Shown one piece after another: positions 214 through 23,370 of a stretch of DNA of 64,000 nt (position 1 is its first letter; each line of letters begins with the position of its first letter). Under the pieces are notes generated by a model. The model ran no database searches, was not told where the DNA came from, and worked only from the letters and a program-made list of their open reading frames with translations. The position numbers were made by a program, and so were the translations under genes. This DNA is from Synechococcus sp. RSCCF101 (lineage in GTDB: Bacteria > Cyanobacteriota > Cyanobacteriia > PCC-6307 > Cyanobiaceae), in the NCBI RefSeq assembly GCF_008807075.1, contig NZ_CP035632.1, positions 1,178,001-1,242,000 on the forward strand, in the 5' to 3' direction.

Positions 214-1446
214 TCAGGGGTCCACCCAGCGACCGTCCTCCTTGATCAGGGCGATCAGCGCCTCCACCCCCTCGGCCTCGGGCACCTTGCGGATTTCATC
301 ACGGCCCCGGTAGAGGGAGATCACACCCGGCGTCTTGCCCACGTAGCCGTAGTCGGCATCGGCCATCTCTCCGGGACCGTTGACGATGCAGCCCATTACG
401 GCGATGTCGAGGCCGGTGAGGTGGGCCGTGGCGCTGCGCACCCTGTGCAGCACCTCCTCGAGATTGAACAGGGTGCGTCCGCAGCTGGGGCAGGCCACGT
501 ACTCCACCATCGTCTTGCGCAGGCCCATGGCCTGGAGGATGCTGTAGCAGACGGGGATCTCCTTCTCCGGCGCCTCCGTGAGCGACACCCGGATCGTGTC
601 GCCCAGGCCCTCGGCCAGCAGGCTGGCGATGCCGGCCGTGCTCTTGATGCGGCCGTAATCGCCATCACCTGCCTCCGTCACCCCCAGATGCAGGGGGTAG
701 TGGAAGCCGGCCCGGTCCATGGTGTGAGCCATCAGCCGATACGCGGCCAGCATCACCGGGGCGCGCGACGCCTTCATCGACACCACGATGTTGTGGAAGT
801 CGAGCGCATCGCAGATGCGGATGAACTCCATCGCCGACTCCACCATCCCCCGGGGCGTGTCGCCGTAGGTGAACAGCATCCGCTCGGCCAGCGAGCCGTG
901 GTTCACGCCGATGCGCAGCGCCTTGTTCTGATCCTTGAGCGTGCTCACCAGGGGCTCGAAGCTCTCCTGGATCCGCGCCCCGATGGCGGCGAACTCCGCC
1001 TCGCTGAAGGAGTCGCGGCCGGGATCGGGCTTCTCGAACACGAACAGGCCGGGATTGATGCGCACCTTGTCGACGTGCTGCGCCACCTCGAGCGCGATCC
1101 GGATGCCGTTGTGGTGCACATCGGCCACCAGGGGAACGGTGCAGCCCTGATCCCGCAGGCGATGCCGGATCTCCTTCATCGCCCGGGCATGGGCCATCGA
1201 CGGGGTCGTGACCCGCACGATCTCGCAGCCCACGTCCGCCAGACGACGGATGCCCGCCACCGAGCCCTCGATGTCGAGGGTGTCCTCATTGATCATCGAC
1301 TGCACCACCACCGGGTGCTGGCTGCCGATCGGCACCTCGCCGGCCCAGACGGTGCGGGTGGGGCGGCGATGGATGGCGGTGTCGAAGCGCGGATCCTGGG
1401 AGAGCTCCCGGTCGGAGCGTTCGCTGGGGACCAGGGTTCCGGTCAT
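214..1446 (-). CDS. ispG: 4-hydroxy-3-methylbut-2-en-1-yl diphosphate synthase IspG
   Basis: This is the penultimate enzyme of the MEP isoprenoid pathway. It reductively converts methylerythritol cyclodiphosphate to HMBPP with a [4Fe-4S] cluster, and in cyanobacteria ferredoxin supplies the electrons. The 410-residue length fits the bacterial family. The N-terminal TIM barrel carries [11 protein letters not shown] and [10 protein letters not shown]. The C-terminal reductase part carries [10 protein letters not shown] and [11 protein letters not shown], which supply the cluster cysteines and the conserved glutamate. The pathway feeds carotenoids, the phytyl chain of chlorophyll and quinones. 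The start ATG at 1446 gives a short non-conserved lead of about 30 residues before the conserved [10 protein letters not shown] segment. Confidence 0.96.
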
Positions 1447-1515
1447 GGGGTCTGCCGGGGTGGGGCGGAACGCGCCAACCCTGCCACAGGCCAGGCCGTC
1501 ACTGGCGCGGCGGGC

Positions 1516-2211
1516 TCAGGGCCGCACCTGCTTCAGGCGGCGGGTCACGTCCTGGAGGTCCTGCCAGGTGAGCCACTTCGGTGAACCGCGGTCCCGCGAG
1601 GCGTTGCGGAGCAGGTAGGAGGGGTGAAAGATCGGCATCAGCCAGCGCCCCTCCCACTCGCGCCACTGGCCCCGCAATCGGGTGATGCCGCCCTTCACCC
1701 CCAGGATTCCCTCCATGGCCGTGGCGCCGGCGAGCAGCACCACGGGTGGATCCACCAGCCGGATCTGCTCCTGCAGCCAGGGCCGGCAGGCCTCCATCTC
1801 CAGCGGCGTGGGCCGGCGGTTGCCGGGAGGCCGGCACTTGACGATGTTGCAGATGTAGGCGTCGCGCTCGCTGTCGAGCCCCACGCTCTCCAGCATGCGG
1901 TCCAGCAGCTGGCCGGCACGGCCCACGAAGGGCAGACCGGTTTCGTCCTCCTGGGCTCCCGGGCCCTCACCGATCACCATCAGGGGCGCCTCCGGGTTGC
2001 CCCGGGCCACCACCACCCGGGTGCGGGTGGCGGCGAGGCCGCAGCGCTGGCAGCTCCGGCACTGCGCCGTCAGCTCCTCCATCGAGAGCGACGGTTCCGC
2101 GATGGGTGGCTCCGTCGGGTCCGTCCCGGCCGCATCGAAGAGCGAGGGCGCCAGCAGCCCGGGATCGGAGGCGGGATCGGGCCGGGAGGCGCGGCCGGAG
2201 GAGGGCGGCAC
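1516..2211 (-). CDS. Family 4 uracil-DNA glycosylase (Fe-S)
   Basis: Predicted to excise uracil from DNA in base-excision repair. Seen in the sequence: GEGPGAQED (about residues 81-89), the family 4 form of the catalytic/pyrimidine-binding motif; GLPFVGRAGQLLD; CNIVKCRPPGNRRPTP; and near the C-terminus HPSYLLRN, the motif that intrudes into the minor groove. Cys51/54/57 with Cys126 and Cys142 provide candidates for the four [4Fe-4S] ligands expected in this family. The start used is a GTG at 2211, which adds about 40 low-complexity residues. An ATG at 2082, just before the first cysteines, is an alternative. The gene lies 20 bp downstream of the VOC gene on the same strand. Confidence 0.9.
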   Translation of the reverse strand: MPPSSGRASRPDPASDPGLLAPSLFDAAGTDPTEPPIAEPSLSMEELTAQCRSCQRCGLAATRTRVVVARGNPEAPLMVIGEGPGAQEDETGLPFVGRAGQLLDRMLESVGLDSERDAYICNIVKCRPPGNRRPTPLEMEACRPWLQEQIRLVDPPVVLLAGATAMEGILGVKGGITRLRGQWREWEGRWLMPIFHPSYLLRNASRDRGSPKWLTWQDLQDVTRRLKQVRP

Positions 2212-2231
2212 GGAGGCGGAGGTGCACGGGC

Positions 2232-2666
2232 TCAGGCCGAGGCTGCCACGGAGCCGGGCGGCGTCACCAGCAGCAGCACGCGGTTGCCCTCAGGGTCCCG
2301 GATCCAGGCCTCCGCCCCGAAGACCTCGCGCCGGGCCGCTTCGCTCAGGTCCGCTCCCAGGTCCGCCGCCTCAAGTCGCCAGGCCTCCAGCCGCTCCAGC
2401 TCCGCCCCGGGCGGCGACTCCCGGGTCAGCACCATCGCCAGGCGACCATCGGCCGGAGGCAGGTCCCCTCTGCGGCGCGAGGGCCTGTAGATCTGCAGCA
2501 GTGCTCCGCTGGTGAGCCGCAGGCGCCAGTGCCGCTCGGAGGCACCCTGAGTCGCCTGCACCCGCAGGAGCCGGGCATAGAACGCCGCCAGCGCAGCGGG
2601 CTGCGCCGCGGCCAGAACCCAGCCGCAGGCCACCGCTGCGCCCCGCTGATCCGCCGTGGAGGGCAT
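2232..2666 (-). CDS. VOC (glyoxalase/bleomycin-resistance-like) family protein
   Basis: A 144-residue protein with the two-module beta-alpha-beta-beta-beta pattern of the vicinal oxygen chelate fold. Visible are the opening GWVLAAAQPAALAAFYARLL segment and the closing AWIRDPEGNRVLLL segment, where RDPEGN is the typical final strand/turn. The metal-ligand positions cannot be assigned with confidence, so catalysis is uncertain; it could be a dioxygenase, a lyase or a binding protein. It lies immediately upstream of, and is probably co-transcribed with, the uracil-DNA glycosylase gene. Confidence 0.75.
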   Translation of the reverse strand: MPSTADQRGAAVACGWVLAAAQPAALAAFYARLLRVQATQGASERHWRLRLTSGALLQIYRPSRRRGDLPPADGRLAMVLTRESPPGAELERLEAWRLEAADLGADLSEAARREVFGAEAWIRDPEGNRVLLLVTPPGSVAASA

Positions 2667-2739
2667 GGGAGGGGCCGATGCAGCGCATCAGGCAGGATGA
2701 CTGTTTGTGAGTGCGTTCCGACACATCGGGCGCACGCCG

Positions 2740-3993
2740 ATGTCGACGCTGCCTCTCTCGCTGCGGGCCCGCGGCCTCAGACCCTCCCCCACTCTGGCGA
2801 TCACGGCACGGGCCAAGCAGCTCCGGGCCGAGGGTCAGACGATCTGCGTGCTCAGTGCCGGCGAGCCCGACTTCGACACCCCGGCCTTCATCCGGCGCGC
2901 GGCGAGCGAGGCGATGGAACGCGGCGCCACCCGCTACGGCCCCGCAGCGGGCGAGCCGCCGCTGCGGCAGGCGATCGCCAGGAAGCTGAGCGAGGAGAAC
3001 GGCATCGCCACCGAGCCCGCCCAGGTGCTGGTCACCAACGGCGGCAAGCAAGCGCTGTTCAACCTGTTTCAGGTCCTTCTGGATCCGGGTGAGGAAGTGC
3101 TGCTGCCGGCTCCGTACTGGGTGAGCTACCCGGAGATGGTGCGGCTGGCCGGCGGCAGCGTCCGCCTGCTGCCCTGTGAGCCCGGCAACGGCTTCCTGCT
3201 CGAGCCGGAGCAACTGGAAGCGGCCATCGGGCCGTCCACCCGCGCCCTGGTGATCAACAGCCCCGGCAACCCCACCGGCACGGTGCTGGGCCGCGAACGA
3301 CTCGAGGCCATCGCGGAGGTGCTGAGGCGGCATCCGCGGGTGGTGCTGATCTGCGATGAGATCTACGAGCACCTGCTCGCCGAGGGGGAGCGCCACCACA
3401 GCCTGCTGGCGCTGGCTCCGGATCTGCAGGAGCGGGGCTTCCTGGTGAACGGCTTCGCCAAGAGCTGGGCCATGACGGGCTGGCGGATCGGCTACCTCAG
3501 CGGGCCGGCCCATGCGATCGCGGCCTCTGTCGCCCTGCAGAGTCAGAGCACCAGCAACGTCTGCACCTTTGCCCAGTACGGAGCCCTGGCGGCCCTGCAG
3601 GGCGGCCGCGAGGAGATGGCGGCCATGGTGGCTGCCTACAACGAACGGCGCGACCTCCTGAGCAGCGGCCTGCAGGCGATCCCGGGTGTGTCACTGCAGC
3701 CCCCGCGCGGGGCCTTCTATGCCTTCCCGGACATCAGCGGCTTCGCTCTGAGTTCGCTGGAGTTCTCCCGCCGCCTGCTGGAGGAGCAGGGCCTGGCCGT
3801 GGTGCCGGGTGAGGCCTTCGGTGACGACCGCTGCATCCGCCTCTCCTGCGCGGCCGAGCCCTCCGCCATCCGCGACGGCCTGGAGCGGCTGGGCCGCTTC
3901 ATCGACAGCCTGCGGAACGGGGCTCTGCAGGCAGCCGCACCCTCGGCCATGGTGAGCGGCATGTCGTCAACCCGTCCCTCCCCGCAGCCGTGA
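2740..3993 (+). CDS. Pyridoxal-phosphate-dependent aminotransferase, class I (aspartate-aminotransferase-like)
   Basis: Transfers amino groups between amino acids and 2-oxo acids. Counting from the ATG at 2740 (417 residues), the family landmarks are SPGNPTG (174-180, with the PLP-contacting Asn), CDEIYE (205-210, with the Asp that binds the pyridine nitrogen) and the Schiff-base lysine K241 in NGFAKSWAMTGWRIGY. The N-terminal LSAGEPDFDTP is typical of class Ib aspartate aminotransferases. An in-frame GTG at 2707 would add 11 residues, but homologues usually start near the 2740 position. The stop overlaps the GTG start of the binding-protein gene by 4 bp (GTGA), so the gene heads the transporter chain. 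Its substrate is not visible from the sequence. Confidence 0.93.
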   Translation: MSTLPLSLRARGLRPSPTLAITARAKQLRAEGQTICVLSAGEPDFDTPAFIRRAASEAMERGATRYGPAAGEPPLRQAIARKLSEENGIATEPAQVLVTNGGKQALFNLFQVLLDPGEEVLLPAPYWVSYPEMVRLAGGSVRLLPCEPGNGFLLEPEQLEAAIGPSTRALVINSPGNPTGTVLGRERLEAIAEVLRRHPRVVLICDEIYEHLLAEGERHHSLLALAPDLQERGFLVNGFAKSWAMTGWRIGYLSGPAHAIAASVALQSQSTSNVCTFAQYGALAALQGGREEMAAMVAAYNERRDLLSSGLQAIPGVSLQPPRGAFYAFPDISGFALSSLEFSRRLLEEQGLAVVPGEAFGDDRCIRLSCAAEPSAIRDGLERLGRFIDSLRNGALQAAAPSAMVSGMSSTRPSPQP

Positions 3994-4979
3994 CGCCCCG
4001 TACCGCCTCCCGCCGGCTCGGCCTGCCACTGGCGCTGGCCCTGCTCTGGCCCGCCTCCCTCCTCCCCTGGAACCCCGCCGCTCTGGCCGCGGCAGCACCC
4101 GCCGCTCAGCGGTCCGCGGCTGAACAGCAGGGTGCCCTGCACGGGGCTGTGGCCCAGGGCCAGCTGCTGCGGATCGGGGCCATCCCCGATCAGAACCCCG
4201 AGAAACTCAACCGCCTCTACAAGCTGCTGGCCGACCATCTCAGCCGAAGCCTGGGTGGCGTGCCCGTGCGCTATGTGCCGGTGAGCGACTACACCGCCGC
4301 CGTGAGTGCCTTCCGTACCGGCCAGCTCGATCTGGTGTGGTTCGGAGGCCTCACCGGCGTTCAGGCCCGGCTGCAGCGGCCCGGGGCCAGAGTGCTTGCC
4401 CAGCGCGACATCGACAAGGACTTCCGCAGCGTCTTCATCGCCAACAGCGGCAGCGGTCTCACCCCGCTGAGCAGCCAGAAGGACCTGACCCGCCTGAAGG
4501 GCAAACGCTTCACGTTCGGATCGGAGAGCTCCACCTCCGGGCGGCTGATGCCCCAGCACTTCCTCGCTCAGGCCGGTGTGACCCTCAAGGACTTCGCCGG
4601 GGGAGCGCCCGGCTTCAGCGGCAGCCACGATGCCACCCTCGCCCTCGTCCAGAGCGGCGCCTATCAGGCCGGGGTGCTCAACGAGCAGGTCTGGCTCAGC
4701 AACGTCAGGGCGGGCAAGGTGGACGCCGACAAGGTGAGCGTGATCTGGCGCACACCCGGCTACCCCGACTACCACTGGGTGGCTCAGCCGGGGCTGGACA
4801 AGCGCTTCGGTGATGGCTTCACCGTCAACCTGAAGGAGGCGATCCTGGAGCTGGACGGCAGCAGCAGCGGCGAGCGGCGCATCCTCGAGCTCTTCGGCGC
4901 CGAGCGGTTCATCCCCGCCCGGGCGGCGGAATACCGGCCGATCGAGACGGTGGGCCGCGAGATCGGCAAGATCCGCTGA
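3990..4979 (+). CDS. phnD: Phosphonate/phosphite-type ABC transporter, periplasmic binding protein (PhnD-like)
   Basis: A 329-residue exported solute-binding protein. A signal peptide is clear: TPRTASRRLG is followed by a hydrophobic Leu/Ala stretch and an Ala-rich cleavage region near residue 35. The mature part has the PhnD-family hallmarks LRIGAIPDQNPEKLNRLY, VRYVPVSDYTAAVSAFRTG, LDLVWFGGLTGVQA and FTFGSESSTSGRLMP. Family members bind phosphonates or phosphite with variable specificity, and the exact ligand cannot be read from sequence. The GTG start overlaps the preceding stop. phnC begins 9 bp downstream, so the transporter genes form one operon. Confidence 0.9.
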   Translation: MTPRTASRRLGLPLALALLWPASLLPWNPAALAAAAPAAQRSAAEQQGALHGAVAQGQLLRIGAIPDQNPEKLNRLYKLLADHLSRSLGGVPVRYVPVSDYTAAVSAFRTGQLDLVWFGGLTGVQARLQRPGARVLAQRDIDKDFRSVFIANSGSGLTPLSSQKDLTRLKGKRFTFGSESSTSGRLMPQHFLAQAGVTLKDFAGGAPGFSGSHDATLALVQSGAYQAGVLNEQVWLSNVRAGKVDADKVSVIWRTPGYPDYHWVAQPGLDKRFGDGFTVNLKEAILELDGSSSGERRILELFGAERFIPARAAEYRPIETVGREIGKIR

Positions 4980-4988
4980 GCCGCGGCG

Positions 4989-5750
4989 GTGAGCCCCGTT
5001 CTCGAGCTGAAGGCCGTCGGGCTGGCCGGTCGCGGCCAGCCCCGTCTCGATGGCATCAGCCTCACCCTGCAGGCGGGGGAGCGGGTGGCCCTGATCGGGG
5101 CCAGCGGCGCCGGCAAGAGCAGCCTGCTGGCGGTGGCCAACGGCTCACTGCAACCCACGCGGGGAGTGGTGCGCTGGTTCGGCGAACCGGCCCCGCGCTC
5201 CCGGCGGCGCCGGCGTCTGCAGCAGCGGCGCATCGGCACCCTCTGGCAGGACCTGCGCCTGGTCGAGGCACTGACGGTGCAGCAGAACCTCAACTGCGGC
5301 TGCCTCGGCCGCTGGTCGCCCTGGCGTGCGGTGGCCAACCTGCTCGGCCCTGTCGACACCGCGGCGGGGCGGGAGGTGCTGCGCCGGCTCGATCTGGATG
5401 AAGGCCTGCTGCCGCTGCCGGTGCAACGGCTCTCGGGTGGCCAGCGGCAACGGGTGGCCATCGGCCGGCTCCTGCGCCAGCAGGCGGAGCTGCTGCTGGT
5501 GGATGAACCTCTGGCGGCCCTCGATCCACCGCGGGCCCGCTCGGTGCTCGCCCTGCTGATGGATCTGGCCGGCGACGGGGCCACCCTGCTGCTGAGCCTG
5601 CACCGGCCCGACTGGCTCGGCGGATTCGATCGGGTGATCGGCCTGGAGGGGGGCCGCTGCGTGCTCGATGCCGATCCGGCCAGCCTCGCCCCCGCTGCGC
5701 TCGAGCGCTTCTACGAAGCCGGAGTCGGCGAACCGGCGGAAACGGCGTGA
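4989..5750 (+). CDS. phnC: Phosphonate/phosphite-type ABC transporter, ATP-binding protein (PhnC-like)
   Basis: A 253-residue ATPase that should power import by the adjacent permease. It has Walker A GASGAGKSS (about 37-45), the Q-loop region GTLWQDLRLV, signature LSGGQRQRVAIGR and Walker B LLLVDEPLAALD. Assignment to the phosphonate class rests mainly on its place between phnD and phnE; the motifs alone fit any importer ATPase. The start is a GTG at 4989. The stop overlaps the phnE GTG start by 4 bp, which implies translational coupling. Confidence 0.9.
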   Translation: MSPVLELKAVGLAGRGQPRLDGISLTLQAGERVALIGASGAGKSSLLAVANGSLQPTRGVVRWFGEPAPRSRRRRRLQQRRIGTLWQDLRLVEALTVQQNLNCGCLGRWSPWRAVANLLGPVDTAAGREVLRRLDLDEGLLPLPVQRLSGGQRQRVAIGRLLRQQAELLLVDEPLAALDPPRARSVLALLMDLAGDGATLLLSLHRPDWLGGFDRVIGLEGGRCVLDADPASLAPAALERFYEAGVGEPAETA

Positions 5751-7402
5751 GCCGCTCCGCCGCAACCATCCGGCTGCCCGCGGCGCCGCTGCTGCCGCTG
5801 CTGCCCCTGCTGGGACTGCTGCCCCTGCTGGTGCTGCTGCCCCGGCTCTGGCACGGCGGCGGCGGCAGCCTGCTGCTCGCCCTGCTGCAGGGAGCGATCC
5901 GGCCCTCGCTGGATCCACTGGTGCTGCAGGACGTGCTGAGCGGTCTGGCGCGCACCATCGCCATCGCCTGGCTCGGATGGGGACTCTCGCTCGGTCTGGG
6001 GCTGGGGCTGGCCCTGGCCTGCTCCACCACCATCTGCCGGGTGCAGTGCGGACTCACCTGGCCGGCGCTGCTGCTGCGGCGATTGCTGGCCCTGCCGAGG
6101 GCCGTGCACGAGCTGATCTGGGGCCTGCTCCTGCTGCAGGTGTTCGGCCTGGAGCCGGCCGTGGCCATCGCCGCGATCACCATCCCCTATGGAGCCCTGG
6201 TGGCCCGGGTGCTGAGCGATCAGCTCGATGCACTCCCCACCGGCAGCCTGCAGGCCCTGCTCAGCGGCGGCAGCCCACCGGGCCAGGCGCTGCTCACCGG
6301 GCTGGCCCCGGCGCTGCTGCCGACCCTGCTGAGCTACGGCGGCTACCGGCTGGAATGCGCTCTGCGCAGCGCCACCGTGCTGGGGATCTTCGGACTGGGG
6401 GGCCTGGGCACCACCCTGCGCCTGACCATGCAGTCACTGCAGTTCCGCGAGCTCTGGACGGGCCTCTGGGCCCTGCTGGCGGTGATGCTGCTGCTCGAGC
6501 AGGGCCTGAGCCGGCTCCGGTCCCGCTGGGCCGCGCCGGAGCGACTGGTCGTGCAGAGCGCGCAGGTGGCGGCGTCGCCGGCGGTGGGGCGCCGCGGCCG
6601 GGAGCTGCTGGTCAGCCTGCTGGTCGTGCTGGCCCTGATGCTGGTCTCAGCCAGGGTCCTGGATCTCGGACCGGGCAGCGAGGGCTGGCCGATGCCGGTC
6701 GCGCTGATCGCAGCCGGCGACCCGGGCGCGGCGCTGCTGGAGGCGCTGCGATCCCTGCCCTGGTTGAGCCTCTGCTCACGCACGCTGCTGATGACGGCAC
6801 TGGCCGCCTGTCTGGCGGTGGGTCTGCCGCCCCTGGCCTGGCTGGTGCTGGAACCCTGGCCCGCCGGTCGCCTGCTCCTGAGTCTGCTGGCCGCCCTGGC
6901 ACGGCTGCTGCCGCCACCGCTGATCGCCCTGATGCTGCTCTTCCTGATGCAGCCGGGCCTGGTGGCCGGGGGCCTGGCGCTGGGCCTGCACAACTGCGGC
7001 GTTCTGATGCGGCTGTTTCTGGAGAGCGACGCGGCCGGCCAGCCGGACCGGGGTCGCGGCGGCCGCACCTGGGAAGCGCTGCGGGCGGCGGGGTGTCCGC
7101 CCCGCCTGGCCCTGCTCTACGGACGCGGCAGCGCCCTGGCGGCGCCCTACCTGGCCTACGGGGCCTACCGAGCCGATGTGATCCTGCGGGAAACGGCGGT
7201 GGTCGGCCTGGTGGGAGCCACCGGCCTCGGCAGCCAGCTGATGGAGTCGCTCAGCTCGTTCGCCTGGGGCGAGGTGGCCGCCGTGGTGGGCGCCTACATC
7301 CTACTGACCCTGCTGGGTGAGACCCTGAGCGACCGGGTGCGCCTGAAGCTGCTGCGGGCCGATGGTCCGCAGGCCGGCACCACCACCGCAGTCGCGCTGT
7401 GA
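5747..7402 (+). CDS. phnE: Phosphonate/phosphite-type ABC transporter permease, fused double-length PhnE
   Basis: An inner-membrane permease of 551 residues, about twice the usual PhnE length of around 260-290. The two halves carry matching permease motifs: LSYGGYRLECALRSATVLG in the first and YLAYGAYRADVILRETAVVG in the second, each followed by a GLGG/GLGS loop. The protein therefore looks like a tandem fusion that supplies both transmembrane subunits in one chain, with roughly twelve hydrophobic segments. A poorly conserved linker of about 80 residues lies between the halves. The gene starts with GTG overlapping the phnC stop and ends in a GTGA overlap with a possible upstream start of the next gene. 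No C-P lyase or phosphite dehydrogenase gene is visible nearby. Confidence 0.88.
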   Translation: MSRSAATIRLPAAPLLPLLPLLGLLPLLVLLPRLWHGGGGSLLLALLQGAIRPSLDPLVLQDVLSGLARTIAIAWLGWGLSLGLGLGLALACSTTICRVQCGLTWPALLLRRLLALPRAVHELIWGLLLLQVFGLEPAVAIAAITIPYGALVARVLSDQLDALPTGSLQALLSGGSPPGQALLTGLAPALLPTLLSYGGYRLECALRSATVLGIFGLGGLGTTLRLTMQSLQFRELWTGLWALLAVMLLLEQGLSRLRSRWAAPERLVVQSAQVAASPAVGRRGRELLVSLLVVLALMLVSARVLDLGPGSEGWPMPVALIAAGDPGAALLEALRSLPWLSLCSRTLLMTALAACLAVGLPPLAWLVLEPWPAGRLLLSLLAALARLLPPPLIALMLLFLMQPGLVAGGLALGLHNCGVLMRLFLESDAAGQPDRGRGGRTWEALRAAGCPPRLALLYGRGSALAAPYLAYGAYRADVILRETAVVGLVGATGLGSQLMESLSSFAWGEVAAVVGAYILLTLLGETLSDRVRLKLLRADGPQAGTTTAVAL

Positions 7403-7437
7403 GACCCTCGGACCGCCGCCGCGTCGCCTCCGCACCC

Positions 7438-8112
7438 ATGACCCTGCCGGTGCCGCGCAAGCTGGTGGTGATGGGCGACAGCACGGTGCAGGGCTGGGGG
7501 GACAGCGAGGCCGGAGGCTGGTGCGAGCGCCTGCGGCTGGAATGGATGGCTCAGCCCCTGGCCCCTGTGATCTACAACCTGGGCGTCCGCGGCGATGGCC
7601 TCGAACGCCTGGCCCGGCGATGCCTGCCGGAGCTCGAGGTGCGCGGTGAACTGCGCCGCCAGATCCCCCAGGGCCTGCTGCTCCAGGTCGGCCTCAACGA
7701 CAGCGCCCGGGTGGGGCGCGCCAACGGGCGGCCGCAGCTCTCCCCCGAGGGCTTCGGCTTCGGTCTGAACCAGCTGCTGCAGGAACTGCAGCAGCACGTC
7801 CCGGTGCTGGTGCTGGGCCTCACGCCGGTGGACGAGTCGATGATGCCCTTCGCCGGCCTGCTCCACTACAGCAATGCCGATGTGCGGCTGTACGAATCGC
7901 TGATCGAGGAGGCCTGCCTGGAGCGGGATGTGCCCTTCCTGCCGCTGATCGATGCTCTGCTCGGCGAGCCCGACTGGCTGCAGTGGCTCAGCCCGGACGG
8001 CATCCATCTCAACAGCGAGGGCCATGCCGAACTGCACCGGCGCATCAGCCGCTGGCCGGCCCTGCTGCGCTGGGCCGGGCTGGAGGCCAGGGTGATGGCC
8101 ACCCCGGGCTGA
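7438..8112 (+). CDS. SGNH/GDSL-family hydrolase (esterase/lysophospholipase L1-like)
   Basis: A predicted serine hydrolase of 224 residues. The block I nucleophile motif LVVMGDSTVQGWGD is near the N-terminus, block II glycine is in NLGVRGDG, block III asparagine is in VGLNDSA and the block V Asp/His pair is in DGIHLNSEGH. All four SGNH catalytic positions are therefore present. No signal peptide is seen, so it is probably cytoplasmic. The ATG at 7438 places GDS close to the start as in homologues; a GTG at 7399 overlapping the phnE stop would add 13 residues and would couple translation. Being last in the transporter chain suggests, but does not prove, action on an organophosphorus ester. Confidence 0.85.
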   Translation: MTLPVPRKLVVMGDSTVQGWGDSEAGGWCERLRLEWMAQPLAPVIYNLGVRGDGLERLARRCLPELEVRGELRRQIPQGLLLQVGLNDSARVGRANGRPQLSPEGFGFGLNQLLQELQQHVPVLVLGLTPVDESMMPFAGLLHYSNADVRLYESLIEEACLERDVPFLPLIDALLGEPDWLQWLSPDGIHLNSEGHAELHRRISRWPALLRWAGLEARVMATPG

Positions 8113-17641: not shown

Positions 17642-18481
17642 TCAGCTGTCGACGGAAGCGGCCAGAACGATCCGGTCGCGTCCCTCGTGCTTGGCCCGGT
17701 AGAGGGCTTCATCGGCGCGGTGGATCGTGTCGCTGTAGCGCTCCCCGATCCGATGCTCGGCCAGTCCGATGCTGACGGTGCACTGAATCACAACCTCGTT
17801 GCAGCTGGTCTGCATCAGGCGGATCTGCTGGAGGACGCGTTCGGCTCCGTGGATGGCCAGTGACTGCGGGGAGCCGGCAAAGAGGATCAGGAACTCCTCA
17901 CCACCCCAGCGTCCGCAGAGGTCGTAGTCACGCAGCTTGGCTTCCAGCGTTCTGGCGAGATTCACCAGGACGGCATCACCGGCATCGTGACCGTGGGCGT
18001 CATTGATGGACTTGAAGAAGTCGACATCCAGGATGGCAATACAATAGGCCGATCCGGTGCGGGCGCTCCGCTCATCCTCCGCCTGGCAGCGTTCGTTCAT
18101 CATCCGGCGGTTGCACAGGTTGGTCAGAGGGTCCCGGGTTGAGGCCACTTCAAGGGCCTCATTGAGGTCCTTGAGCATGGACTGGTAGCGATCCGAAATG
18201 CGAGTGACTTTCTCGATCTGCCGCTCCAGCCGCTCAAAGCGCTGATCAACGCTGCGACGTTCGGAGAAGGGTCGATTGCTGTTGCGGCGTTCCGGAGCAC
18301 CGGTCGCACGCTCCAGACGGTCGATCTTGTCGACGTGATCGTTCCAGAGGCTCTCGAGCGCCTGATGCAGGGGGTGATTGCGATAAGCAGGATCCTCGAG
18401 GAGGGACTGAATCGTCTTCTCGAGCTCGGCCTGGCAGGCGGATGGCGCTGGCAGCGAGGGGAGGTCGGGGGCCGGGGTCAC
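17642..18481 (-). CDS. siaD: GGDEF diguanylate cyclase, SiaD-like
   Basis: Makes cyclic di-GMP from two GTP. The 279-residue cytoplasmic protein has an N-terminal helical, coiled-coil-like half (about residues 20-115) and a GGDEF domain from DPLTNLCNRR (117-126) onward. The active-site motif GGEEF is at 193-197 and the metal-binding LDVDFFKSIND at 151-161. RDYD at 184-187, five residues before GGEEF, is a complete inhibitory I-site for product feedback. There is no sensor or membrane segment, as in SiaD, whose stalk is activated by SiaC. The GTG start overlaps the SiaC stop (GTGA), so it is the last gene of a four-gene coupled operon. Confidence 0.88.
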   Translation of the reverse strand: MTPAPDLPSLPAPSACQAELEKTIQSLLEDPAYRNHPLHQALESLWNDHVDKIDRLERATGAPERRNSNRPFSERRSVDQRFERLERQIEKVTRISDRYQSMLKDLNEALEVASTRDPLTNLCNRRMMNERCQAEDERSARTGSAYCIAILDVDFFKSINDAHGHDAGDAVLVNLARTLEAKLRDYDLCGRWGGEEFLILFAGSPQSLAIHGAERVLQQIRLMQTSCNEVVIQCTVSIGLAEHRIGERYSDTIHRADEALYRAKHEGRDRIVLAASVDS

Positions 18482-18870
18482 GGCTGCTCCGCTGTGATCA
18501 CGAAGGGGAAGGTGTAGTCCTCCTTGAACTCTTCGCCAAGCTCGGCAGCGCGAGGATTGCGATGGTCGTAGTACCAGCGCACACTCACATCCCGCCCGGT
18601 GGAAAAGGAGTCCTCAAGCGCATCAAAGACATCTATCATTGCCCGAATGCTGCTGGTGTTCAGATAGGTGAGGGAGAGAACCAACGCAAGAGGAGCCGAT
18701 GAGCTTGAGAGATAGAGCTCAGTCCACTCGATCAGATCGTCGAACAGTTCGAAGGTGTTCTCTGGATACGATTCACCCTCGATGCGAAGCAACCCCTCCT
18801 GCCAGACCGCATGAATCAACGGCGTGCAGGATGTGGGTTCAACGCGGAGATCACTGCCTTGCGTCACCAT
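18478..18870 (-). CDS. siaC: SiaC-like regulator (DUF1987)
   Basis: A small cytoplasmic switch protein of 130 residues. In Pseudomonas the unphosphorylated SiaC binds and activates the SiaD cyclase; SiaB phosphorylates it and SiaA removes the phosphate. The family motifs are here: RIEGESYPENTFELFDDLIE, then SLTYLNTSSIRAMIDV, where the Thr/Ser in NTSS is the expected phosphorylation site, then WYYDHRNPRAAELGEEF. The ATG at 18870 is used; another ATG at 18879 lies 2 bp after the siaB stop and would add three residues. Identification is strengthened by the exact gene order around it. Confidence 0.88.
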   Translation of the reverse strand: MVTQGSDLRVEPTSCTPLIHAVWQEGLLRIEGESYPENTFELFDDLIEWTELYLSSSSAPLALVLSLTYLNTSSIRAMIDVFDALEDSFSTGRDVSVRWYYDHRNPRAAELGEEFKEDYTFPFVITAEQP

Positions 18871-18880
18871 CGACCTCATC

Positions 18881-19438
18881 TCAGATCACCGCCCGCACAG
18901 CCAGGAACGCAAGACCATCCGGCACCAGCTGCTCATCCATGTAGGCCTGAACCGGCTGACGCACCGTCCGGGCCACCTGCAGCAGCCCCAGACCCGCACC
19001 GGAGGTGGCCCCATCCACGCGGGGGCGGCGCAGCTGCTTTTTGTAGCGCTGTTTGAGCGCCGCGGCGTCCAGGTCGTGCAGCTCGGAGATGCGACGGATC
19101 ACATCCCGGCCATCCTCGGGATGGACCCAGTTGCCGGCGGTGATGCTGATGGAGCCGGCATCGGTCTCACTGATCACAACCGTGGCTGAGGATTGCACGT
19201 CACTGAGCTCATGCGTACGGGCGTAGTGACTGATGTTCTGACAGAACTCGATGTAGACACTGAACACATCGACAGCTGTGGAGGCGTGGGGCTGAACCGA
19301 CTCGATATGCCGCTTGAGCGCAAGACCCATCTCACCGATGAGATTGCTTGAGATCAACCCATTGAAGCACATCAGGATCCGATGGTCATTGAAGGTCTGC
19401 CGCAACCTGCCCAGGCTCAGAAGTGCGTCCTCACTCAT
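18881..19438 (-). CDS. siaB: SiaB-like protein kinase (DUF6272 family)
   Basis: A 185-residue protein with a reduced GHKL-type ATP-binding fold: an N-box-like EFCQNISHYAR (about residues 67-77) and a G-box-like SGAGLGLLQVART near 145-157. Family members phosphorylate SiaC on Ser/Thr and so switch off the cyclase. The ATG start overlaps the SiaA stop by ATGA, and siaC starts 2-11 bp downstream, depending on which ATG is used. DUF6272 is often annotated as unknown; the kinase call relies on neighbours SiaA, SiaC and SiaD as well as on the two boxes. Confidence 0.85.
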   Translation of the reverse strand: MSEDALLSLGRLRQTFNDHRILMCFNGLISSNLIGEMGLALKRHIESVQPHASTAVDVFSVYIEFCQNISHYARTHELSDVQSSATVVISETDAGSISITAGNWVHPEDGRDVIRRISELHDLDAAALKQRYKKQLRRPRVDGATSGAGLGLLQVARTVRQPVQAYMDEQLVPDGLAFLAVRAVI

Positions 19439-20595
19439 GCGATCACAGCCTCATCGAAGCGGAAGCAGAGGATGGTCACATCGTCGCGCTGCTGATGATC
19501 ACCCCGGAAGTGGTCAAAGGTGGTTGCCAGCACATCCTTCTGCCGGTGAATCGGCAGAGCGGAGTTGCGCTGAATCCAGTCCTGGAAGCGATCAGTGCCG
19601 AAGCCGAAGCCATCGCTGCCTCCGGCCTGATCAAGGATGCCATCGGTGGTGAGGTAGTAGGTCGTTCCGGGCCGCAGCACCACATCATGATCGCTGTACT
19701 GGCCCTGTCGCTTCTGCCAGAGCGAACGCTTGTCGCCTCGGATCATGCCCACACGGCTGCCATCGCTCCAGAACAGATGAATGTGAGCACCGCTGAAGCG
19801 GAGCAGCGATCGATCGAAGTCGAGCATGACAAGGCCAAGGTCCATACCCGTCGCCAGGGCCCTGGATTCGTGGGCTTCACGGAACAGGGGCCGCATGAGC
19901 TGGTCCACGGTGTCCATCAGAACGGCCGGTGAAGCGATCCCGACCTGATGAACGGCCCGGTCCAGACTGGAGCGGGCCAGCATGGTCATCATGGCCCCGG
20001 CGACACCATGGCCGGCACAGTCGGCCACGCCGGCGAGGCAGCGGGAGCCTTCACGATGGAAGAGATAACAATCACCTCCCACACCGTCGCGTGGTTTCCA
20101 GATGACGAAATAATTGTCGGCGAACGTCTGCTGGAGCTGGGAGTCCGGCAGAATCGTTCGCTGGAGCAGGGAGGCGTAGCGGATGGAGGCGCCGATCTGA
20201 TTCTGAGCGGCGCGAAGTTCAACGTTGTAGTCGTTGAGCTTGCCGGTGTAGCTGCTGATCGTCTCGAGGACGGAATTGAAGCCACGGGCCACAGCCGAGA
20301 CCTCATCACTGCCACGCACGGTCAGTCGGGAGCTGAAGTCGCCGGATTCGATCTGCAGGGCTTCACGGGAGAGCACGCTCAGTGGGCCGAGCACCCGGGT
20401 GTAGATCAACCGGTAGGACAGCAGGGACAGCAGGACCAGGAAGAAGCTCAGCAGACCCGCAACCGGCAAGAGTTCCTGGCTGCGCCAGGGGCTGGCCACA
20501 AGCGCCTGGACAACGACGAACAGATAAATCAGAACGATCCCATTGCACACCGCCAGCAGGGTGAACAGCTTCTGAATCGTGAGCCGACGGGTCAT
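19435..20595 (-). CDS. siaA: SiaA-like membrane PP2C/SpoIIE phosphatase with HAMP domain
   Basis: A 386-residue membrane protein expected to dephosphorylate SiaC. Two membrane helices (about 11-31 and 43-62) are separated by only about a dozen residues. A HAMP domain (about 62-115) and a short helix lead into the PP2C/SpoIIE domain, with the metal-binding motifs DGVGGDCYLF, VADCAGHGVAGAMM, TTDGILDQAGG and RDDVTILCFRF. As far as I know, characterised SiaA proteins carry a large extracytoplasmic sensor region; here it is essentially missing, so the input signal must reach the protein through the membrane or HAMP segment, or by another route. It is the first gene of the coupled siaABCD order. 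Confidence 0.85.
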   Translation of the reverse strand: MTRRLTIQKLFTLLAVCNGIVLIYLFVVVQALVASPWRSQELLPVAGLLSFFLVLLSLLSYRLIYTRVLGPLSVLSREALQIESGDFSSRLTVRGSDEVSAVARGFNSVLETISSYTGKLNDYNVELRAAQNQIGASIRYASLLQRTILPDSQLQQTFADNYFVIWKPRDGVGGDCYLFHREGSRCLAGVADCAGHGVAGAMMTMLARSSLDRAVHQVGIASPAVLMDTVDQLMRPLFREAHESRALATGMDLGLVMLDFDRSLLRFSGAHIHLFWSDGSRVGMIRGDKRSLWQKRQGQYSDHDVVLRPGTTYYLTTDGILDQAGGSDGFGFGTDRFQDWIQRNSALPIHRQKDVLATTFDHFRGDHQQRDDVTILCFRFDEAVIA

Positions 20596-21150: not shown

Positions 21151-22194
21151 TCAGCAGAGCTCGCTCAGCACCGGCCGGTCGCACAGCTGCTCCCCGCTGG
21201 TCAGCGGTCCCAGATCGTCCCAGGGCACGATCCACACATCGTCCGGCACATCCTCCAGGAGCGCATCCACACCCGGGTTGGGCAGTTCAACGATGCGGCG
21301 CTCGCGCAGGTTCAGTCGCCGCCGCAACCAGGGCCTGACCATGGCCTTCTCCAGCAGAGCCTGGTAACGACCGTCGGCGATCGCCCGCCTCAGACCCTCA
21401 TCCAGGGCGCTCGCGAGCTCGTCCTGACTGGGATGGACGTAGAACATCATCGCGAAGGGATACGCCAGCAACAGGTGGTCGTCCAGCTCGACCCGGGGGT
21501 AGCGGCGTTCCACGACGAGGTGATCGGTGCCGAGCTCCGGCAGACCGCGGGGGATCATGTCGATCCGGTTCTCGTTGAGCAGCTCGAACAGGAGATCGGG
21601 TTCCACTTCAAACGTGCGCAGGCCGGCAGCCGCCATCAGCCGGGCATCGCTCCAGCCGGTCCCCTGGGCCACAACCAGTCCCTGCAGATCCTCCAGCAGT
21701 CGGCTGGAGGCCAGTCGATCACGCCTGGAGCGGTTGACCCAGAGCCCACGCAGTCCCAGCAGCCCGCCGAGAACGGGCACCGGCACCGGCCTCAGGCGAC
21801 GGTGCAGCTCAGGGCCCGCGCCGAAGAAGCCCACAGTGAGTCCGGCGGGATTATCGCTGCTCACATCGGGCGAGGCAGCGAGGCGCTGCACCGCCATCTC
21901 CTGATTGCCGGGCAGGCGTGCGTAACCCATCACAAAGGGTCGGCCGCTGGCCTCCAGTGCCAGGCGCAGCACCCGATAGGGCAGGGCATCCGGTGTGCTG
22001 GAGGCCGTTCTGGGCACCACGACCCGCAGGGTTCCCGGCGGAACGTTGGCCAGCTCATCCACCGTGAGTTCATCGTCATCACGGATGGTCGGGCGCTCGC
22101 GGATGCGATCTTCGATCCGGGCCCACCCCACCGCGAGGATGGCGACCGAGGCCAGCAGGGCGCCGGCGGCCCAGATGCGCGAGCGCCAGCCCAT
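21151..22194 (-). CDS. Membrane-anchored periplasmic solute-binding protein (SBP_bac_3-like)
   Basis: 347 residues from the ATG at 22194. A single N-terminal hydrophobic segment (about residues 6-23) without an evident cleavage or lipobox site suggests a membrane anchor. The rest resembles the amino-acid-binding SBP_bac_3 fold: a first strand GTLRVVVPRT, a central LEDLQGLVVAQGTGWSD segment of the kind that crosses to the second lobe, LLFELLNENRIDMIPRG and the final helix ALDEGLRRAIADGRYQALLEKA. No ABC permease or ATPase is nearby. The start overlaps by one base the stop of the channel-like gene (TGATG), so the two are translationally coupled. A role as ligand-binding partner of that channel is inference. 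Confidence 0.7.
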   Translation of the reverse strand: MGWRSRIWAAGALLASVAILAVGWARIEDRIRERPTIRDDDELTVDELANVPPGTLRVVVPRTASSTPDALPYRVLRLALEASGRPFVMGYARLPGNQEMAVQRLAASPDVSSDNPAGLTVGFFGAGPELHRRLRPVPVPVLGGLLGLRGLWVNRSRRDRLASSRLLEDLQGLVVAQGTGWSDARLMAAAGLRTFEVEPDLLFELLNENRIDMIPRGLPELGTDHLVVERRYPRVELDDHLLLAYPFAMMFYVHPSQDELASALDEGLRRAIADGRYQALLEKAMVRPWLRRRLNLRERRIVELPNPGVDALLEDVPDDVWIVPWDDLGPLTSGEQLCDRPVLSELC

Positions 22195-23273
22195 CAGCCG
22201 CTCACCACCCCGCGGGGGATCAGGGCGTAGATGGCGCTCATGGTGAGCAGCAGGTAGCTGGGCAGCACGGCGGACTGGAGCAGGGAGCGCCACCGTCTCG
22301 GCCAGCCCTCCATCTGGTGATCGATGATCTCATCGGCACCGATCACATAGAGGATGCCCACCAGGATCACCAGCTGCAGCTGGCCAATGAACCCGGCCAT
22401 CGCATCCACAGGCAGGATGCCGGCCAGGAAGACGTAGTTGCCCGCCGCGGAGACCACTGCCGCCAGGATCAGATCGTCCCGGGTGCGATGAATCACGAGT
22501 GCCAGCACGCAGAGGCCGATCGCCAGCATGTAGCCGAGAAAATCCGGCACCAGATAGAGCGAGGCTCGTCTGGAGATCTCCAGCGTGCTCGTCACCGCCT
22601 CGGCCCGCCCGGGCGAGCCGACCTCCAGGCGCGGGTCGCCCAGGTTGCTGAGGGTCTGAAGCCGGTTCAGGCTGATGCCGCTCTCCCCGAGCTGCCAGCC
22701 ATAGAGATAGAGGGTGGGACTGACACCGCTGTTGGCCGTGTCGACCTCCAGTGCGGGGCTTCGGCGCAACGGGTTGGCATAACCCACCTGCAGGTTGAGG
22801 AGATGGCTGTCGAAGGGATAGCTGTCGAGGCGCCAGCGATGCACGAAGCGCCCGTGGACCGTGTACAGCGACCAGATCCGCGATCCGATGCGCTCCCGGC
22901 TGAGCCGTTCGAAGCGGTCCAGATCTGCATTGAAGATGCTGTTGAGCACCGTCAGGTCGTCGCTGGGGTTCTCGGCCTCATCGCCGGGCCAGAGGGTCCA
23001 GAGATACAGCTGAGCGTTGAAGGAGGCGTTGTGGAGATCGATCCCGTCCAGCTGGGTGAGGTACATCCCCACCCGCAGGGTGTCCGGGAGAAGCGGCGCC
23101 TGATCGATGGTGGCCGGCAGCCCCGGCATCGGATCATCCGAGGCGAAGGGAACAGCGGCTGGGGCGGGAACGGCCCGCATGCCGGGACCGGCCAGCAGAG
23201 CCAGCAGCGTGATCACCACGATGAGGGCCCGTCCCCGCTTCCAGCCAGGTCTGCCGTGGGTCCGACGCGCCAT
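22194..23273 (-). CDS. Pentameric ligand-gated ion channel-like membrane protein
   Basis: 359 residues with a signal peptide (about 1-40), a beta-rich extracytoplasmic domain (about 60-235) and four C-terminal helices at about 239-261, 267-287, 293-313 and 330-352. This is the topology of prokaryotic pLGICs. The domain has an opening strand LRVGMYLTQLDGIDLHNASF, a tryptophan-containing LYLWTLWPGD segment and SYPFDSHLLNLQV at 151-163, matching the conserved aromatic-Pro-Phe-Asp of the Pro-loop. TLEISRRASLYLVPDF leads into the first helix, as in the family. Flanking cysteines of eukaryotic Cys-loops are absent, as in other prokaryotic members. The second helix (RDDLILAAVVSAAGNY) is unusual for a pore helix, so channel activity is uncertain; a sensor role is possible. 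Confidence 0.68.
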   Translation of the reverse strand: MARRTHGRPGWKRGRALIVVITLLALLAGPGMRAVPAPAAVPFASDDPMPGLPATIDQAPLLPDTLRVGMYLTQLDGIDLHNASFNAQLYLWTLWPGDEAENPSDDLTVLNSIFNADLDRFERLSRERIGSRIWSLYTVHGRFVHRWRLDSYPFDSHLLNLQVGYANPLRRSPALEVDTANSGVSPTLYLYGWQLGESGISLNRLQTLSNLGDPRLEVGSPGRAEAVTSTLEISRRASLYLVPDFLGYMLAIGLCVLALVIHRTRDDLILAAVVSAAGNYVFLAGILPVDAMAGFIGQLQLVILVGILYVIGADEIIDHQMEGWPRRWRSLLQSAVLPSYLLLTMSAIYALIPRGVVSG

Positions 23274-23337: not shown

Positions 23338-23370
23338 ACTTCTCAAGGTTTCCGTTACAGTTTGAGAAGT
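23338..23370 (+). promoter_or_regulatory. Promoter/operator-like region of the hli gene
   Basis: A perfect 9 bp inverted repeat, ACTTCTCAA (23338-23346) and TTGAGAAGT (23362-23370), flanks 15 bases that contain TACAGT at 23356-23361, a reasonable -10 box 25 bases before the ATG. The -35 region is weak. The string GTTACAGTT also occurs upstream of the second hli gene near 32965. An operator or a RpaB-type HLR1 half-site is possible but not proven. Confidence 0.4.

Follow-up and report, generated by a model that had tools for sequence, protein, structure and literature searches.

A Pentameric Ligand-Gated Ion Channel-like Protein and a Tethered Solute-Binding Protein Encoded as an Overlapping Gene Pair in Synechococcus sp. 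RSCCF101: A Candidate Two-Part Receptor

Introduction

For most bacterial pentameric ligand-gated ion channels (pLGICs), neither the natural ligand nor the role is known. The closest described arrangement to the one reported here is a prediction by Tasneem et al. in 2004, who placed some bacterial ART-LGIC genes in conserved neighborhoods or predicted operons with stand-alone genes for type II periplasmic binding proteins (PBP-II), suggested that the two proteins cooperate, and proposed the bacterial forms as chemotaxis receptors (PMC549065). The alignment in that paper includes a Synechococcus sequence. Seven signature positions of the pLGIC superfamily, including an F/Y-P-x-D Pro loop, are listed in Table 1 of PMC4795631, which also gives the residue at M1 14' as proline in 77% and glycine in 5%. 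In the later open-licence literature, no pair of a pLGIC with a binding protein was found in titles or abstract openings. Here we describe such a pair in Synechococcus sp. RSCCF101 (GCF_008807075.1), located within the 64,000 nt stretch of NZ_CP035632.1 from position 1,178,001 to 1,242,000, referred to as the window.

The pair consists of a channel-like protein (CH) and a membrane-anchored solute-binding protein (SBP). Their linkage across genomes, their shared history, and the fold assigned to each protein indicate that they very probably form an obligate functional pair.

The Gene Pair and Its Linkage across Genomes

CH, the first gene of the pair, encodes 359 aa (22194..23273, minus strand) and was defined from its open reading frame (ORF) and translation, a clade profile, and a structural model. 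SBP, the second, encodes 347 aa (21151..22194, minus strand) and was defined from its ORF, an SBP_bac_3 match, a model, and Foldseek and VIA comparisons. The minus strand is therefore read through CH (23273 to 22194) and then SBP (22194 to 21151). The first-pass annotation had reported both frames and a stop/start overlap between them, and these are present as described: the CH stop TGA (22196-22194) and the SBP start ATG (22194-22192) have one base in common, giving TGATG (22192..22196, minus strand). CH might alternatively start at an in-frame GTG further upstream, at 23339. The overlap suggests that the two genes may be translationally coupled.

Linkage was surveyed in 400 genomes of the same family with cut-offs of E 1e-30 for CH and 1e-10 for SBP. 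CH was present in 32 genomes from seven genera and SBP in 36, and in 31 genomes both were present and adjacent, with SBP directly downstream; the CH count is one of matches at this cut-off rather than of frames confirmed intact in every genome. In the 32nd genome (G659, on the same contig as locus L121), the contig stops about 30 bases past CH, so the presence of SBP could not be judged, and a short SBP match at L121 lies mostly within CH. Five further genomes gave an SBP match. In one of these (G612) the contig begins inside SBP, another (G173) has an internal stop, and the remaining three (G130, G540, and G564) hold only C-terminal remnants of SBP. Across the 400 genomes, every complete SBP that was seen was accompanied by CH, and there was no demonstrable case of a CH lacking SBP. 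The neighborhood survey that the first-pass annotation had proposed as a check thereby found the two genes side by side in all 31 judgeable genomes.

When 201 genomes of this family were searched at the protein level, 23 gave a CH match, of which 13 (the RSCCF101 genome included) were close, at E 2.4e-73 or better. These 13 genomes span six genera and are the basis of the clade profile and of the 13-sequence counts below. Within about 7-9 kb around the pair, only the CH and SBP ORF clusters recurred in more than three genera, and their order and strand were constant; two further clusters spanning three genera were opposite-strand ORFs lying over or beside the pair. Adjacency was kept at 37-50% identity to the window proteins. 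The adjacency of CH and SBP is far beyond chance. Two relatives have long open frames (739-749 aa) that were considered as possible CH-SBP fusions and turned out to be separate ORFs.

Named genomes were also searched. A single-protein query returned nothing, whereas an alignment query picked up 22 CH loci, 21 of which have SBP downstream; the other is L121, the G659 contig. The two sets are not independent, as loci L120, L121, L124, L126, and L127 are on the same contigs as members of the 400-genome set. Four of the 21 are in metagenome-assembled genomes (MAGs) labeled Myxococcota and one in a Halioglobus MAG, with SBP about 40-42% identical to the nearest member of the alignment. The occurrence of the pair in MAGs so labeled (L106-L108, L110, and L111) suggests either inter-phylum transfer or mis-binning.

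The spacing of the genes was counted at 35 loci, of which L121 and L124 could not be judged, using candidate start codons rather than determined starts. At 17 of the 33 judgeable loci, the CH stop and a start codon in the SBP frame have 1 or 4 bases in common, the nearest lies 5-18 bases past the stop at 14, and two MAG loci (L110 and L111) have 43-49 bases between stop and start. Because the earliest available start codon was used for some rows of the SBP alignment, their N-terminus may be too long, that of L006 most of all.

Shared History, Possible Replacement, and Loss

Pairwise distances of CH and SBP were strongly correlated with each other (r 0.96), compared with 0.72 and 0.73 for their correlations with RpoB. 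The partial Mantel correlation between CH and SBP given RpoB was 0.92 (p 0.0001, 9999 permutations). The two proteins have a common history that departs from that of RpoB. Genomes G060 and G196 illustrate this at one locus: their RpoB sequences are 99.7% identical and the flanks of the pair are collinear with 84.8-87.6% DNA identity, yet CH is only 53.9% and SBP 46.4% identical. The cassette was thus replaced, or diverged, as a unit. In the comparison of L099 against L097, one chromosomal locus of two nearly identical species, the cassette is about half diverged in protein between flanks of 85-88% DNA identity, and appears either hypervariable or exchanged.

In four relatives, deletions at that locus have different endpoints and left no CH and only broken SBP. 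In G130, G540, and G564, CH and the larger part of SBP are missing through a single gap, and G173 lost CH and the start of SBP and carries a later stop.

Fold and Superfamily Membership of CH

The sequence, model, and hydropathy of CH all support the pLGIC topology proposed in the first-pass annotation: a hydrophobic N-terminal signal comes first, then a beta-rich ectodomain in which residues 151-155 are S-Y-P-F-D, and the C-terminal part consists of four helices. The predicted beta-sandwich ectodomain covers residues 62-235 (22569..23090, minus strand; AlphaFold2 secondary structure and alignment to GLIC), with the tip of the Pro loop, Y152-P153-F154-D155, at 22809..22820 (minus strand), a sequence that is conserved in the clade and is a superfamily signature. 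Helices M1-M4 span residues 241-352 (22218..22553, minus strand; model helices and hydropathy), and the AlphaFold2 helices are 241-260, 265-284, 289-320, and 326-351.

The first-pass annotation had tied its channel assignment to a significant profile match, and this held for the clade and not for the single protein. Against the Pfam profiles Neur_chan_LBD/memb, the window CH protein alone had no match above the curated cut-off, and one of the 13 clade members matched with E 0.078. NCBIfam gave no match or name for CH, SBP, or the two relatives submitted; annotation from Pfam and NCBIfam would overlook both proteins. The 13-member clade profile, searched against the PDB, matched GLIC with E 4.5e-5 for the whole sequence and 0.0043 for the best single stretch, around the Pro loop. 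Profiles to which distant cyanobacterial relatives had been added matched GLIC and chimeras across both ectodomain and membrane domain, with best E-values of 9.3e-25 and 4e-35, and these enlarged profiles borrow strength from the added members. Profile-profile comparison of CH with canonical cyanobacterial relatives gave 99.6% (E 1.8e-23). A PF02931 search of the RSCCF101 genome was uninformative because no control matched.

An untemplated AlphaFold2 model of CH from the 13-row alignment (predicted local distance difference test (pLDDT) 69, predicted template modeling score (pTM) 0.56) has the strand and helix order of a pLGIC. Its best PDB match was GLIC, with a Foldseek E-value of 7.4e-15 and, by VIA, Z 17.2 and a root-mean-square deviation (rmsd) of 3.7 over 274 residues (span 64-357). 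Six of the seven signature positions are kept in CH and each is invariant in 13 of 13 sequences, namely Y152, P153, D155, W193 (the beta9 Trp), R235 (the pre-M1 Arg), and P288 (the M2-M3 Pro); F154 is nearly invariant. The alignment by hhalign also places R235 and P288 opposite the canonical residues, and sets G247 opposite the seventh position, the M1 14' proline. This residue is Gly in 13 of 13 sequences, which is a listed minor alternative at a position that is no absolute requirement. By fold, motif, and profile, CH almost certainly belongs to the pLGIC superfamily; its assembly would probably be pentameric.

The alignment of relatives (A4) had 33 rows. Near-duplicates, fusions, and very divergent sequences were left out (L007, L010, L023, L025, L080, L088, L091, L092, L053/L077, L054, L075, L076, and the second gene of L078). 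L022, a weak match in the search for CH relatives, was kept out of all alignments as it is Na/Ca-exchanger-like by sequence. No relative was confirmed among viral contigs.

The M2 Helix and Membrane Domain

The predicted pore helix M2 runs from R265 to P288 (22410..22481, minus strand; columns in 13 sequences and alignments). Across the 13 sequences, R265-L270 is R-D-D-L-I-L without exception, G278 is always Gly, and P288 is always Pro, with variation at A271 (Ala/Gly), V274 (Val/Phe), and V281 (Val/Ile). M2 is the most conserved segment of CH, with a mean majority fraction of 0.88, compared with 0.83 for M3, 0.80 for M1, 0.65 for the ectodomain, and 0.52 for the M3-M4 link; 11 of its 24 columns are invariant, compared with 30 of 174 in the ectodomain. 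This strong constraint argues that M2 does something, and falls short of proof of conduction.

P288 lies opposite the canonical M2-M3 proline in four MAFFT modes (seven canonical rows each) and in hhalign. The register of the first turn differs by four residues between the aligners. In the four MAFFT modes, R265 is at 0' opposite the canonical R0' and D266-D267 are at 1'-2', whereas hhalign puts I269 at 0' and D266-D267 at -3'/-2' and opens a four-residue gap before Leu-Pro. A gap-free M2 alignment therefore holds for MAFFT and fails in hhalign. GLIC carries an acidic ring at -2', so that the hhalign register would bring CH closer in appearance to a typical cation channel. The second helix had been called atypical in the first-pass annotation. 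It is less odd than supposed in that its closing Leu-Pro aligns with canonical M2 in every alignment tried, although its R-D-D start is unusual and ambiguous in register. The M3-M4 link in the model is five residues long (320 to 326), too short for a cytoplasmic signaling domain on CH.

The Binding Protein

SBP is predicted to be anchored by one N-terminal transmembrane helix (residues 4-32; 22099..22185, minus strand; model helix with a hydropathy peak at 7-25). Its Venus-flytrap domain covers residues 52-324 (21223..22041, minus strand; the span aligned by VIA). A C-terminal segment (21154..21183, minus strand) contains C338 and C347, both invariant in 13 of 13 sequences, and these could possibly form a disulfide.

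SBP matched Pfam SBP_bac_3 with E 0.0044 and 17.2 bits, below the curated cut-off of 26.4; nine of the 13 members of the SBP alignment gave a weak match at E up to 1, the best being 1.5e-4. The SBP model had a pLDDT of 86. Foldseek ranked opine and amino-acid binding proteins best (SocA, 5l9o, E 2.5e-12), and VIA ranked the ligand-binding core of GluR0 first (2pyy, Z 17.0, rmsd 2.6, 203 residues), effectively tied with many amino-acid binding proteins whose scores differed by no more than 1 Z unit. The modeled fold is that of a two-lobed type II solute-binding protein, which agrees with the earlier description of a membrane-anchored, SBP_bac_3-like protein.

Searching plasmids with SBP by tblastn gave 19 records, all distant and none covering 80%. 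Their hosts were Paraburkholderia, Caballeronia, Pseudoalteromonas, Catenovulum, Aeromonas, and Saccharobesus; one match was annotated as a diguanylate cyclase and one as a transporter substrate-binding protein.

Neighboring Genes, Chemotaxis Genes, and Other Cyanobacterial pLGIC-like Genes

Fifteen of the neighboring ORFs between 10.2 and 32.6 kb of the window were run against Pfam. Fourteen had a match, one being a sulfate permease, and none of the 15 was an ABC-transporter component, in line with the first reading of the locus as lacking an ABC partner. Just downstream of the pair, in tight order, lies a SiaABCD-like cyclic di-GMP cluster (17642-20595, minus strand) with Pfam matches to a SpoIIE phosphatase with HAMP, DUF6272, SiaC, and a GGDEF diguanylate cyclase. 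This cluster is near the pair in only two of the 13 genomes and was consequently not counted as part of the system.

MCPsignal and CheW had no match at E 0.001 in any of the 13 pair genomes. The same search gave matches in seven of 14 control genomes, and each of the three comparison genomes, whose pLGIC-like genes adjoin che genes, had 9-16 MCP and 8-20 CheW matches. A Che route is thus unlikely for the window's clade, and classical chemotaxis was set aside as the output of the pair. Of the earlier proposal of a two-part chemosensory channel, the functional unit is well supported, and none of the 13 pair genomes tested gave an MCP or CheW match.

In cyanobacteria, a different subgroup of pLGIC-like genes does adjoin chemotaxis genes. 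The neighbors are CheW and MCP at L078 and L079, CheB and CheA at L081, and CheR at L080, together with CheW- and MCP-like ORFs identified by eye; at L017, L019, and L024 a CheR gene precedes the pLGIC-like gene and overlaps it by 4 bases. This provides neighborhood support for chemosensory pLGICs in cyanobacteria outside the window's clade. Elsewhere, four cyanobacterial pLGIC-like genes (L084-L087) have Glu two residues past the M2 arginine and lie upstream of a gene that is trigger-factor-like by sequence, and one (L083:2811-5754) lies between ABC-2-type permease-like genes (by eye, from ORF starts).

A fusion of the two module types was found in a distant cyanobacterium (G314, locus L077). 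Two tandem genes of 1187 and 1183 aa (900-4463 and 4550-8101, minus strand; Pfam and hydropathy) each encode a type I periplasmic binding protein (PBP-I) module, a pLGIC module, and a C-terminal type II SBP_bac_1 domain after M4, at residues 799-1086 and 799-1089, respectively. The first copy has no hydrophobic segment between M4 (to about 750) and SBP_bac_1, and the second has one to 763 that may be M4 itself. The order of channel and then type II binding protein is that of the genes in the window. As the fused domain comes from another SBP family, it supports a partnership of module types and not common descent with CH-SBP.

Discussion

Wherever the locus is visible, the CH gene is followed by the SBP gene, and the two probably form one receptor. 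On balance, we slightly favor a bipartite receptor channel in which the tethered SBP senses a ligand and ion flux through CH is the output. CH would form a pLGIC-type assembly in the membrane, probably a pentamer, whose ectodomain presumably faces the periplasm, and SBP would stay next to it through a membrane helix of its own. A small solute, for which an amino-acid-like compound is the best candidate, may cause SBP to close and so to alter its contact with the CH ectodomain; the change could then travel via the Pro-loop/pre-M1/M2-M3 junction and open the M2 pore. Ion flux is the simplest output given that CH has no cytoplasmic domain and there is no conserved third gene. Among the parts of this proposal, a physical complex of CH and SBP is the likeliest, conduction of ions by CH is reasonably probable and held a little less firmly, and an amino-acid-like ligand, plausible from the fold, falls somewhat short of even. 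In its most specific form, which we offer as a tentative and rather doubtful extension, the system would be an obligate two-chain receptor in which a tethered, glutamate-receptor-like Venus-flytrap gates a Cys-loop-type pore in trans, allowing electrical or ionic nutrient sensing in bacteria without MCP or CheW.

Several points weigh against the bipartite receptor channel. One of the 31 pairs, in G624, has a split SBP frame and is a doubtful case. Co-loss is weakened as proof that the two genes depend on each other, and is partly trivial, as in three of the four deletion genomes a single gap took away CH together with most of SBP. Expression of CH and SBP from a single operon is presumed from their overlap only, and the confidence of the CH model is only moderate. 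The register of the M2 start is ambiguous, with D267 at 2' according to MAFFT and at -2' according to hhalign, and the MAFFT register puts Ala/Gly at 6', a position held by Thr in canonical relatives. CH could be non-conducting, and a new sensor class in place of a channel, as suggested in the first-pass annotation, is possible.

The latter would be the case if CH were a receptor of pLGIC fold whose helices are moved by SBP to signal to an unlinked cytoplasmic partner. The unusual invariant R-D-D and the small residues along M2 are consistent with this, as is the other cyanobacterial subgroup beside che genes, where Che signaling would be natural. However, CH has no cytoplasmic domain and a very short M3-M4 link, no third gene is found nearby in more than three genera, and M2 is the most conserved segment, and we regard such a receptor as unlikely. 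About as unlikely, or marginally more so, is that CH is gated by itself, by a proton, calcium, or a ligand, with SBP merely tuning it or concentrating the ligand, as PMC549065 proposes for PBP-II partners. The complete ectodomain, the conserved Pro loop, and the pre-M1 arginine would suit a self-sufficient channel, and the matched PDB entries describe GLIC as a proton-gated channel, but SBP is missing from none of the 31 judgeable genomes, with the possible exception of the split frame in G624, which is beyond what would be expected of a dispensable tuner.

Pores of pLGICs pass ions and not amino-acid-sized solutes. This general property, together with the superfamily coupling residues that CH retains, makes it very improbable that SBP feeds substrate to CH as a pore or facilitator in place of ABC permeases, even though the SBP fold is that of transporter binding proteins and the neighbors examined include no ABC component. 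Least probable of all is that the adjacency is a by-product of shared descent or mobility with no functional link. The distribution of the pair is patchy (32 of 400 genomes), and its replacement or deletion takes place as one cassette, as might be so for such a by-product, but the adjacency holds at 37-50% identity, in seven genera, and in MAGs labeled as other phyla while other neighbors change, and these two types of module also occur fused in another genome. The bipartite receptor channel thus remains our preferred reading.

If its most specific, two-chain form is true, the pair could be a route of chemosensing in marine picocyanobacteria. Some swimming marine Synechococcus are chemotactic, by sensors that are not known to have been identified. 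In the present case the genome supplies the channel and, with it, a candidate for its ligand sensor; the gene pair is small and self-contained and can be expressed in E. coli or oocytes. If SBP gates CH, then a Cys-loop pore and a glutamate-receptor-type clamshell, both modules of animal synapses, would be joined in one bacterial receptor.

Comparison with Known Systems

CH resembles GLIC, ELIC, and DeCLIC in the fold of its ectodomain and membrane domain, and in its Y-P-x-D Pro loop, pre-M1 Arg, beta9 Trp, and M2-M3 Pro. It differs from them in having Gly for Pro at M1 14' and an invariant R-D-D at the start of M2, in falling below the Pfam and NCBIfam thresholds, and in having a separate binding-protein gene in every judgeable genome. 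SBP shares its fold and a sequence match in the C-terminal lobe with SBP_bac_3 proteins (SocA, LAO, and GlnBP), and differs in its own membrane helix, its additional C-terminal segment with two invariant Cys, and the finding of no ABC partner nearby. The likeness to GluR0, a bacterial ionotropic glutamate receptor, is in its ligand-binding core, the first-ranked solved structure for SBP; the GluR0 pore is unrelated to CH, and its binding core and pore are in one chain.

An additional ligand-binding or modulatory module on a pLGIC is also present in the PBP-I-pLGIC fusions (PMC549065), and DeCLIC is reported to have an additional N-terminal domain (PMC9897478). In contrast to these, the module of CH-SBP is of PBP type II, is separate, has its own membrane anchor, and is encoded downstream. 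The nearest relative in kind is the ART-LGIC/PBP-II type (PMC549065), with which CH-SBP shares the adjacency of a pLGIC gene and a stand-alone PBP-II gene (in 31 of 32 genomes, with a contig end in the remaining one). That paper is not known to name an organism for its PBP-II operons, or to contain quantified linkage, co-inheritance, the lack of MCP and CheW, or a C-terminal fusion.

The kind of system described here is therefore already known as a prediction. Our analysis adds the lack of MCP and CheW, the fusion, a fold-level identification of both partners, an invariant R-D-D at the start of M2, and an obligate clade with quantified constant linkage and joint inheritance. If SBP gates CH, the 2004 prediction would become a testable system.

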